This document shows positions 42,444-48,569 of a stretch of 64,000 nucleotides of DNA, in pieces. The DNA comes from Roseateles depolymerans. Its GTDB lineage: Bacteria; Pseudomonadota; Gammaproteobacteria; Burkholderiales; Burkholderiaceae_C. Below the pieces are notes generated by a model. The model ran no database searches and was not told the DNA's origin. It saw only the letters and a list, made by a program, of their open reading frames with translations. The translations under genes and the position numbers were made by a program. How positions within the stretch are numbered: position 1 is the stretch's first letter; each line of letters begins with the position of its first letter. The stretch lies in the NCBI RefSeq assembly GCF_003387155.1, contig NZ_QUMT01000003.1, positions 186,001 to 250,000 of the forward strand, given 5' to 3'.

Positions 42444-47252
<4,809 letters not shown>

Positions 47253-47287
47253 CGGTGGCCTCCAGGGGGTTCTTGGGAAACCCGCGC

Positions 47288-47316
47288 AGGTTAGCAACGC
47301 CGGGGGGCGCAGACAA
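47288..47316 (-). promoter_or_regulatory. Candidate gltB promoter
   Basis: On the minus strand TTGTCT (47316-47311) and TAACCT (47293-47288) are separated by 17 bases, placing a start about 28 bases before the gltB ATG. The match to the housekeeping consensus is moderate. Confidence 0.35.
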
Positions 47317-47372
47317 GCAGAACTAAATGGGGTCAGTGTCGATTTATGGTCTGGCGTAGTGAAGCTTGTCTT

Positions 47373-48074
47373 TTAATTGGGGACAGATTGAGATTTGCGG
47401 GGGCGGCCGCGGGGGCGGGGCGCGGTGGGGCGGGGGCTGAGTTCGGCGAGCGCGGCCAGGAAGGACGGGGAGCCGAGGGGCCAGCCCTTGAGCGCCGCAT
47501 CCACCAGGCGCTGGCGGTCAGCTTCGACTTCCCCCTCCTCCAACCAGCGGCGCCAGGTGAGCTCGCGCTCGAAGGGGGTGTTACCCAGAGCCCAGAAGTC
47601 CGGCGGGTCGCTGATGAGTGGGTCGCGGCGGCGGCCCAGGTGGTGCGCGGCCGAGGACCACGGGTAGTCCGCTGGGTCGGTGGCAAGGCCGGCGCGCAAG
47701 GGGTTGAGTTCAATGCTGCGCATCAGCGGCAGCAGGAATGCGGCAGCTTCGACAGGAGCAGCTCTGAAGCGGCCTTCCCAGAGGGTGCCCACTCGTTGGT
47801 GGCGCTGGTTGAATGCCGCCACGTAGCGACGGCCCAAGGCCTGCATCATTCGGGACAACCCCTCGTCGCTGGTAGGGGTCGCCAAGAGATGCAGGTGGTT
47901 CGGCATCAACACATACGCATGGATCGCCACCCGGTACGTGGCGGCGCAGTCCTGCAGCGCCGCCATCAACAACCGGCGGTCGTCGTCGTCATGCGCAATC
48001 GGCTGGAGGTTGTGGCCGCGGTGGATGACGTGGTGCAGGTGGTTCGCTAGCGCGAGGCGGGGGAGGCGGGCCAT
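47373..48074 (-). CDS. REP-associated tyrosine transposase (RAYT, Y1 family)
   Basis: This is a 233-residue single-strand HUH transposase of the TnpA-REP type. The metal-binding motif is HLH at 60-62 (VLMPNHLHLL), and the likely nucleophile is Y84 in GRRYVAAFNQRHQ, followed by the family hallmark GTLWEGRFRAAPV and IELNPLRAGL, YPWSSAAHHLG. The C-terminus is basic (PRPRGRPRKS). The start MARLPRLALANHLHHVIHRG at 48074 follows GGAAGAG; the longer frame runs through repeats. The stop lies inside one of two 14-bp inverted repeats that flank the gene. It interrupts the otherwise usual dgt-gltB neighbourhood. Confidence 0.88.
   Translation of the reverse strand: MARLPRLALANHLHHVIHRGHNLQPIAHDDDDRRLLMAALQDCAATYRVAIHAYVLMPNHLHLLATPTSDEGLSRMMQALGRRYVAAFNQRHQRVGTLWEGRFRAAPVEAAAFLLPLMRSIELNPLRAGLATDPADYPWSSAAHHLGRRRDPLISDPPDFWALGNTPFERELTWRRWLEEGEVEADRQRLVDAALKGWPLGSPSFLAALAELSPRPTAPRPRGRPRKSQSVPN
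47374..47387. repeat. Left 14-bp inverted repeat flanking the RAYT gene
   Basis: TAATTGGGGACAGA, exact inverse complement of 48098-48111. It covers the last codons of the transposase gene. A related sequence, AAATGGGGTCAGTGTCGATTT, lies about 50 bases further left (47325-47345), as if an older end were present. Confidence 0.8.
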
Positions 48075-48097
48075 GGGGCTCTTCCGGGGGCGTGGAG

Positions 48098-48111
48098 TCT
48101 GTCCCCAATTA
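48098..48111. repeat. Right 14-bp inverted repeat flanking the RAYT gene
   Basis: TCTGTCCCCAATTA, exact inverse complement of 47374-47387, 23 bases upstream of the transposase start codon. Together the pair delimits a 738-bp unit holding only the transposase gene. Confidence 0.8.
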
Positions 48112-48127
48112 TGCTCGGCTTGTTGGG

Positions 48128-48293
48128 GGCTCGGTTCTCTGACTTCGCTCGGGAAGTTGTGGGCTTGGAGGCTCGGTTTCCTGACTGCGCTCGAAAGCCA
48201 CTGGCTTGAGGCTCGGTTCTCTGACTGCGCTCGGGAAGTTGCGGGCTTGGAGGCTCGGTTCCCTGACTGCGCCCGAAAGCCACTGGCTGGGGC
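48128..48293. repeat. 82-bp composite repeat, two copies (A-B-A-B)
   Basis: Four subunits each open with GGCTCGGTT, at 48128, 48170, 48210 and 48252 (spacings 42, 40, 42). Subunits one and three end in GGGAAGTTG(T/C)GGGCTTGGA; two and four continue with a GAAAGCCACTGGCT stretch holding the 11-base palindrome AGCCACTGGCT. The pattern resembles REP units clustered beside a RAYT. Confidence 0.75.
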
Positions 48294-48377
48294 CCTTTCA
48301 CTCCATGTCATTCCTGTCCCGCTTCGCGGGCCATTCCCTTCTTGACTTCCGTGAAAGGGCCCCAGCCAGCGGCTTTC
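48275..48377. repeat. REPIN-like inverted repeat (27-bp arms)
   Basis: The left arm at 48275-48301 (GAAAGCCACTGGCTGGGG and on to CCCTTTCAC) and the right arm at 48351-48377 are inverse complements with one mismatch in 27. The right arm is followed by CGAACCGAGC, the inverse of the GCTCGGTT that heads each repeat unit, so the right arm is an inverted, shortened copy of the same repeat. The 49-base spacer has a small CCCGC-TTC-GCGGG hairpin. Confidence 0.8.
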
Positions 48378-48438
48378 TCGAACCGAGCTCCTCCACCAAC
48401 AACCAGCCGCAAATGACCACCGCGGCCCATCGCCACCC

Positions 48439-48569
48439 TCAGGGCTCAGGGCTCAGGGCTCAGGGCTCAGGGCCCAGGGCCCAGCTCACGGCTCACGGCT
48501 CACGGCTCACGGCTCACGGCTCACGGCTCACGGCTCACGGCTCACGGCTCACGGCTCACGGCTCACGGA
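48439..48569. repeat. Two adjoining heptanucleotide arrays
   Basis: Five copies of TCAGGGC (48439-48473), then CCAGGGC and a truncated unit, then eleven exact copies of TCACGGC (48486-48562) and a final TCACGGA. The two arrays differ at one base of the unit, suggesting one arose from the other. Length is likely to vary between strains. Confidence 0.92.

Follow-up and report, generated by a model that had tools for sequence, protein, structure and literature searches.

Rickettsia palindromic elements (RPEs) are palindromes of roughly the size of the element described below that occur in frame within conserved genes as well as in intergenic positions, and to our knowledge the mechanism of their spread is unknown. 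MITEs are bounded by terminal inverted repeats of conserved sequence and accompanied by a target duplication, and the cleavage of hairpins at replication is established for long palindromes of E. coli. REPs are described in two studies as palindromes with a GT(A/G)G tetranucleotide at their base, as having conserved ends around a spacer, and as flanking the RAYT gene on both sides (PMC2817692, PMC3116915). Other work treats template switching, by which hairpins are kept perfect, as a mutational process that operates generally in RNA genes (PMC8794818), or presents a palindrome as a possible chronic break site, involving SbcCD in E. coli (PMC3315005, PMC4213011).

The window analyzed here, a stretch of 64,000 nucleotides from Roseateles depolymerans, holds what is almost beyond doubt, in identity and structure taken together, one copy of a family of hairpins of about 105 nt that combine 27-bp arms of free sequence with a conserved core of 44 to 51 nt and a small apical hairpin. 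The element and its immediate surroundings comprise:

48119 to 48200, plus strand: first copy of an 82-bp tandem duplication (A1+B1, the outer-flank head GGCTCGGTTCYCTGACTGCGCTCG and the start of the arm)
48201 to 48282, plus strand: second 82-bp copy (A2+B2, of which B2 continues into the left arm)
48274 to 48300, minus strand: left hairpin arm (27 nt), a site-specific sequence that differs from its orthologue in genome G008 by compensated changes
48301 to 48351, minus strand: conserved 51-nt core of type 1 with the TTGACTTCCG end, the part common to the dispersed copies
48318 to 48330, minus strand: apical 5-bp hairpin CCCGC-TTC-GCGGG within the core, the third pair of which is G-C or C-G among copies
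48352 to 48378, minus strand: right hairpin arm (27 nt), pairing with the left arm
48379 to 48395, no strand assigned: right outer flank CGAACCGAG..., with a weak consensus (cg.ACCgaGGac) common to other copies

A preliminary description of this region had read it as a cluster of REP units with a terminal REPIN, and the repeat geometry that it gave was accurate. The 82-bp direct repeats (48119-48200 and 48201-48282) are 90% identical, the 27-bp inverted repeat with one mismatch lies at 48275-48301 and 48351-48377 (96% complementary, 26/27, with 49 nt between), and the right side is indeed shorter by about a dozen bases, as shown by a second inverted pair of 12 nt farther out (48126-48137 and 48380-48391). 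The four subunits headed by GGCTCGGTT are likewise there, this sequence occurring four times in the 64-kb window and always at this place, with 0.59 occurrences expected and none of 100 shuffles reaching four. The B unit itself is not a dispersed repeat as had been supposed: The motif GAAAGCC(A/G)CTGGCTGGGG has two exact copies in the genome, both within the window element, so that the proposed count of genomic copies finds a single element for this motif, but the 49-nt "loop" of that description does recur genome-wide when the whole region is compared to the genome by BLAST, and it is on this loop that the copies are centered. Among the 48 copies of the own genome with enough flanking sequence, four GGCTCGGTT heads within 300 bp to the left are seen at one (the window copy), a single head at 12, and none at 35, and the four-head arrangement is found in 0/48 control stretches located 350 to 650 bp away. 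The tandem A and B units are a local 82-bp duplication of the outer flank and arm start of the window copy and not REP units. To the right of the element and before dgt, two abutting arrays of a 7-bp unit (GGCTCAG, then GGCTCAC) occupy positions 48437-48568.

The core of the dispersed copies reads CTCCATGTC-ATTCCTG-TCC[G/C]GCTTCGC[C/G]GG-CCATTCCCTTCTTRACTTCCG or belongs to a related 51-nt or 44-nt type, and the arms of around 27 bp vary between copies yet match each other within each copy. A covariance model built from 23 copies returned 59 rows at E<=1 in the own genome that correspond to 54 distinct places, one of them weak (E 0.027), and this count is a lower bound for which 150 of 4,010 candidates were scored. 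Several loci (L031, L032, L140, L223, L224, and L226, with L036 truncated) carry a core variant of about 113 to 120 nt with two extra hairpins after CTCCATG, which looks like an element nested in an element. An exact-pattern scan of viral contigs gave no match, and no description of this hairpin family was found among titles and abstracts of the open-licence literature; the family is apparently undescribed.

On the minus strand, 97.8% of the cells in the 23-copy alignment are paired and 27 of 32 pairs show changes on both sides, compared to 94.4% of cells and no G-U pair on the window strand; none of 500 shuffles reaches the minus-strand pairing by any of five measures, and slid controls arrive at 39% to 54%. 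The apical hairpin (helix 2) is paired in 100% of cells, and two of its five pairs vary on both sides. In the window copy, the arms pair at 26 of 27 positions on the minus strand if G.U is allowed (25 of them Watson-Crick), and the hairpin folded as RNA reaches -71.0 kcal/mol on the minus strand, with a z of -11.3 against 200 shuffles, and -66.7 kcal/mol on the plus strand, z being near -11. When the 24 innermost pairs are examined in the 134 copies of five species, mispairs read on the window strand are A.C in 169 cases, G.T in 5, and others in 46; most imperfect pairs are accordingly wobble pairs of the minus strand, and this large excess of A.C over G.T identifies the minus strand as the folded one. 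A set of 28 rows from relatives gives a ratio of 33:14 with 46 others, and at least one copy in it is present on both strands. The constraint acts on the minus-strand fold more than on the sequence of the arms.

Such wobble polarity could equally mean that the element functions as RNA. If so, the purine-rich minus strand would be transcribed, its arms would drift under the pairing constraint, and the hairpin, which has several GGA motifs in its internal loop, would bind an RNA-binding protein, making the element a CsrA-like sponge or a determinant of mRNA stability or termination. Besides the one-strand wobble pairs in Roseateles (169:5) and in relatives (33:14), the conserved internal loop and the strong fold fit a structured RNA. 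However, the elements are nearly indifferent to the orientation of neighboring genes, which relative to the minus strand are tandem co-directional at 47, tandem antisense at 42, convergent at 25, and divergent at 11 of the 125 copies with both neighbors known (9 further copies have unknown arrangements). Curated Rfam covariance models gave no match at the gathering score, with sub-threshold matches coming from unrelated, mostly microRNA, families; the composition skew of the flanks described below is not predicted by a structured RNA, and the link to CsrA is tentative. We consider an RNA function possible but somewhat unlikely. These mixed gene arrangements also leave an orientation of the elements tied to host transcription unsupported.

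None of the 134 copies in five Roseateles genomes overlaps an open reading frame scored by a codon-usage heuristic that was trained on six genes of the window and is not a gene caller. Element matches are present in 15 of the 16 genomes of the genus including our own (2 to 58 rows each), and an exact pattern retrieved 30 stretches from genome contigs that all belong to Roseateles sp. YR242, R. terrae, or a metagenome-assembled genome labeled Rubrivivax. Comparison of the 134 copies across the five species yielded 85 cross-species pairs of elements whose left and right flanks each match over 150 bp or more; 80 of these pairs have the same orientation and 5 are flipped; tandem copies contribute several pairs per site to this number. 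There are 74 one-to-one pairs, and 60 of them were compared position by position after excluding 14 with an arm that differs at more than 10 positions. Their 1,620 stem positions comprise 1,264 unchanged ones, 204 compensated Watson-Crick changes, 114 one-sided changes, and 38 others. The left arms agree at 20.6 of 27 positions between orthologues and at 13.6 of 27 between nonorthologous copies, a poor conservation of sequence. When core types are assigned by a simple rule, 32 of the 74 one-to-one sites have different types. Arms therefore belong to the site, whereas core types have been exchanged. The family is old and has been held at orthologous intergenic sites in a clade of Roseateles.

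The paired arm changes, many of them transversion-type (119 of the 204 compensated ones), resemble those of hairpins maintained by template switching. Template switching on its own would explain these paired changes but not the one-strand wobble pairs that persist here across a dispersed family, which pure copying should erase.

The features next to the element that had suggested REP biology are the following:

47373 to 48074, minus strand: gene of a RAYT-like Y1 transposase (Pfam PF01797, E 3.8e-9; NF047646 at 78.8 bits, just below the cut-off of 80)
48098 to 48111, minus strand: TAATTGGGGACAGA, the RAYT gene's own upstream flank motif, which recurs in orthologues

Like REPs and REPINs, the elements are dispersed extragenic palindromes forming a single-stranded DNA or RNA hairpin with compensatory changes, and they can occur as inverted pairs and tandem clusters with a RAYT gene nearby. 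That they are a REP/REPIN cluster mobilized by the neighboring RAYT, as the preliminary description had it, is nonetheless highly improbable. The many extragenic copies typical of REPs are there, and minus strands have a GT(A/G)G-like head at a distance of up to 8 nt from the stem somewhat more often than controls (19 of 129 copies versus 26 of 516), with 4 of 129 versus 39 of 516 on the plus strand, yet this head is missing in 110 of the 129 copies. The design is also inside out, with a conserved middle and free arms in place of conserved ends around a variable spacer, and the RAYT gene is not flanked by two inverted copies of the element. It keeps its own flank motif instead: AATTGGGG(A/T)CAGA-like flanks are seen at 14 of 15 RAYT loci, one of them with a base less (the upstream part of L111 lies outside the view), and a hairpin is found within 1.5 kb at only 3 of the 15 orthologous loci, on one side and with one match each. 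Furthermore, a close RAYT orthologue is present in 15 of the 16 genomes of the genus, but G006 has one without any element match, and G007 has elements without a close RAYT orthologue. What stands of the former interpretation is hence a dispersed palindromic family in 54 places; a REP/REPIN system of the adjacent RAYT does not, and this RAYT was rejected as the obvious partner of the elements. The RAYT gene is itself bracketed by inverted (T)AATTGGGGACAG-type motifs (47374-47387 and 48098-48111) that are recurrent in the orthologues of the genus and are probably the RAYT's own recognition ends. A second, distant RAYT-like gene (33% to 38% identical; L048, G000:C1:202280-202954) has matches in all 16 genomes of the genus, one of the 16 lacking an assigned locus, and is apparently a fixed gene.

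Beyond the genus, a first covariance model had matches in 34 of the 200 genomes of the family that were searched, counting our own, and in 30 of 141 genera, and a second model in 11 of 399 genomes of the order Burkholderiales, own included, adding two families besides our own; both numbers are lower bounds, obtained with strict filters and 19 or 10 candidates per genome. Sequences from 14 of the 33 other genomes of the family have CTCCRTGTCCYCC-hairpin-CTCCTCCTTKACYTNCG or a near relative as their common core, and matches in the remaining ones may include chance hairpins. Copies in other genera often form inverted pairs, mostly 42 to 50 bp apart and at some loci about 96 to 148 bp, though sometimes they point in the same direction. 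The expectation of intergenic inverted pairs was partly right: Roseateles copies avoid scored reading frames, and inverted pairs are often seen in other genera. At three loci in genomes labeled f21 (L310, L312, and L328), the sequence TTTCATGC...AACTGA(C/A)ATG, which resembles a leader, is common to different genes located downstream of the twin hairpins.

Some copies in other genera lie in frame within mutS (in MutS domain III), mpl (Mur ligase), a CobB/CobQ-type gene as assigned by Pfam, and one open reading frame without Pfam match, and they encode the common peptide A-[EQ]-V-K-E-E-..-R-A-G-D-T. MutS with the element has about 30 residues more than solved MutS, and Mpl with the element has 34 residues where chain 3eag has 14; the CobB/CobQ-type fragment had no match in a search of solved structures. 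The mpl insertion is common to one genus (L284, L292, L293, L295, and L296), in which all seven genomes match, one of them over two contigs, and accordingly no close empty site was found for it there. In mpl of G230 (L296), the core is inverted between arms that have been kept. We dropped the idea that the arms arose as an inverted duplication of target DNA; both mpl arms lie inside the longer insertion relative to chain 3eag.

In-frame palindromic insertions in conserved genes are the hallmark shared with RPEs, though here they are confined to other genera, none of the Roseateles copies is in a scored reading frame, the lineage is a different one, and the comparison of the two groups is one of descriptions. 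The elements could accordingly be selfish palindromes of RPE or MITE type without host function that were spread long ago by a putative enzyme recognizing the folded core and are mostly immobile now in Roseateles. The common peptide and the extra residues in MutS and Mpl are in line with such an origin, as is the patchy presence in the family and the order, but dead copies would not be expected to persist, with compensated changes, at shared sites of several species to the extent observed, and no empty site was seen. We view a purely selfish element as unlikely.

The surroundings of the elements have a peculiar base composition. At 300 to 1150 bp from the element, the left flank in window orientation has more G than C at 127 of 129 copies (48/48, 25/25, 18/18, 29/30, and 7/8 in the individual species), compared to 65 of 130 on the right, and 120 of 122 left flanks remain positive once those shared within a genome are removed. 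At 20 loci of 20 kb, the 1.5 kb adjoining the element on the left have a skew of +0.12 to +0.15, which subsides by about 5 kb; on the right, the GC skew stays near 0 for the first 1.5 to 2 kb and is negative at about 2 to 6 kb. Elements in this clade thus sit in strand-asymmetric composition domains of about 10 kb. At the window locus this corresponds to one further feature:

45274 to 48273, plus strand: G>C-skewed neighborhood on the left, with values of +0.131 and +0.158 in its two bins of 1.5 kb and +0.009 in the bin beyond, the subject of the RAYT/gltB orthologue comparison

The dgt gene on the right-hand side is also G-skewed at this locus (+0.133), unlike the average. The skew is most pronounced at third codon positions, where it amounts to +0.250 on the left and, going rightward, to -0.005, -0.082, -0.108 (at 2.5 to 4 kb), and -0.061, with -0.001 beyond 6 kb; it is weak at first and second positions. 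Third positions also have more T than A in the same sense, so that the signature is one of cytosine loss to G and T. When the cumulative skew is detrended, 9 of 20 loci have their maximum no more than about 150 bp from the element, with 0.44 expected from circular shifts (500 rounds, none giving more than 3). This tight placement is lost on blanking the element together with 200 bp on either side, after which 3 of 20 maxima lie within about 350 to 450 bp, although 14 of 20 lie between -0.6 and +2.2 kb. As left and right flanks behave differently, we rejected replication strand as an explanation of the skew.

The association of elements with skew in this clade is also apparent from loci with and without them. 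The skew of the RAYT gene is 0.164, 0.226, and 0.184 where the element is present and ranges from -0.007 to 0.095 in 11 species where it is absent; G001, which has no element within 1.5 kb at the window locus and a RAYT skew of 0.192, has possibly lost it. As an element-free control, nine pieces of left flank were sought in three genomes with few or no elements (G015, G006, and G014), and no element was found in the 30 relative loci that were returned. Of these, 23 were used, excluding six further matches of a repeated first piece with uncertain orthology and one short match. The aligned left flanks have a mean skew of 0.116 in our genome and of 0.016 in the relatives, with the own value higher in 21 of 23, and the direction is the same at each of the nine loci, though narrow or partial at two (0.120 versus 0.109 and 0.167 versus 0.109). 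Reading differences from relative to own, C>G outnumbers G>C by 2421 to 1129, C>T outnumbers T>C by 1243 to 650, and G>A stands at 835 against 745 for A>G, all of them unpolarized and with several comparisons per locus. Other counts speak against a family-wide effect: G015, with elements of another subtype, has a clear left skew at 1 of 11 (L341) and a slight one or one confined to 500 bp at two more, G163 has left skew at 2 of 6 elements, and G012 at 5 of 5 within 500 bp and 4 of 5 beyond, L348 being skewed in the first 500 bp only. As elements of other subtypes are mostly without skew, membership in the family alone does not produce it.

Conversely, the skew might predate the elements; local switches of composition would then have been preferred places for their insertion or survival in one orientation. 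The unpolarized substitutions leave room for this order of events, as do the skewed but element-free locus of G001 and the two of nine loci that are similarly or moderately skewed in the relatives too. Against it, the orthologous stretches of relatives without any element found are less skewed nearly throughout, and on either side the effect peaks close to the element and weakens farther away. An older skew is, in our view, distinctly unlikely.

We infer instead that the hairpin causes the skew, and propose the following course of events. The hairpin would extrude in single-stranded DNA, probably at replication, and be cut repeatedly or stall the fork, with SbcCD-type hairpin cleavage as the obvious candidate. 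Ends would then be resected and the strand ending 3' at the element exposed on each side, and this exposed strand would lose cytosine to G and T, leaving an antisymmetric skew of around 5 kb each way. On both sides it is the strand with its 3' end at the element that loses cytosine, as expected from resected ends. Repair between copies and across arms would also account for the exchange and inversion of cores, for the paired changes of the arms, and for tandem duplications like the 82-bp one. Unlike the palindromes studied in E. coli, the elements are natural, conserved, and present in dozens per genome, and their cleavage is putative. A bias of their orientation against the replication fork is only suggested, with elements opposing the fork in 10/11 cases in G012, 8/11 in G015, and 3/10 in G163 (one tandem pair counted; dnaA placed). 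RNA selection would explain the wobble pairs but neither the indifference to gene orientation nor the skew, and a mixture of these processes is possible.

We give the combination of hairpin family and break or stall mechanism about even chances of being the best explanation overall. That the element is a site of recurrent hairpin-induced breaks or fork stalling, taken by itself, falls somewhat short of that, and we hold a little more tentatively still that the elements are conserved, orientation-dependent fragile sites around which strand-specific loss of cytosine has rewritten some 10 kb. Here, individual palindromic elements can be traced across species at shared sites, together with their co-varying arms, exchanged cores, strand polarity, and a local mutational scar for which element-free loci serve as a control. 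If the proposal is true, dozens of natural hairpins per genome would be built-in hot spots of recombination or mutation of a bacterial chromosome, and breakage or stalling at a hairpin of 105 nt would determine base composition in ordinary genes over tens of kilobases.
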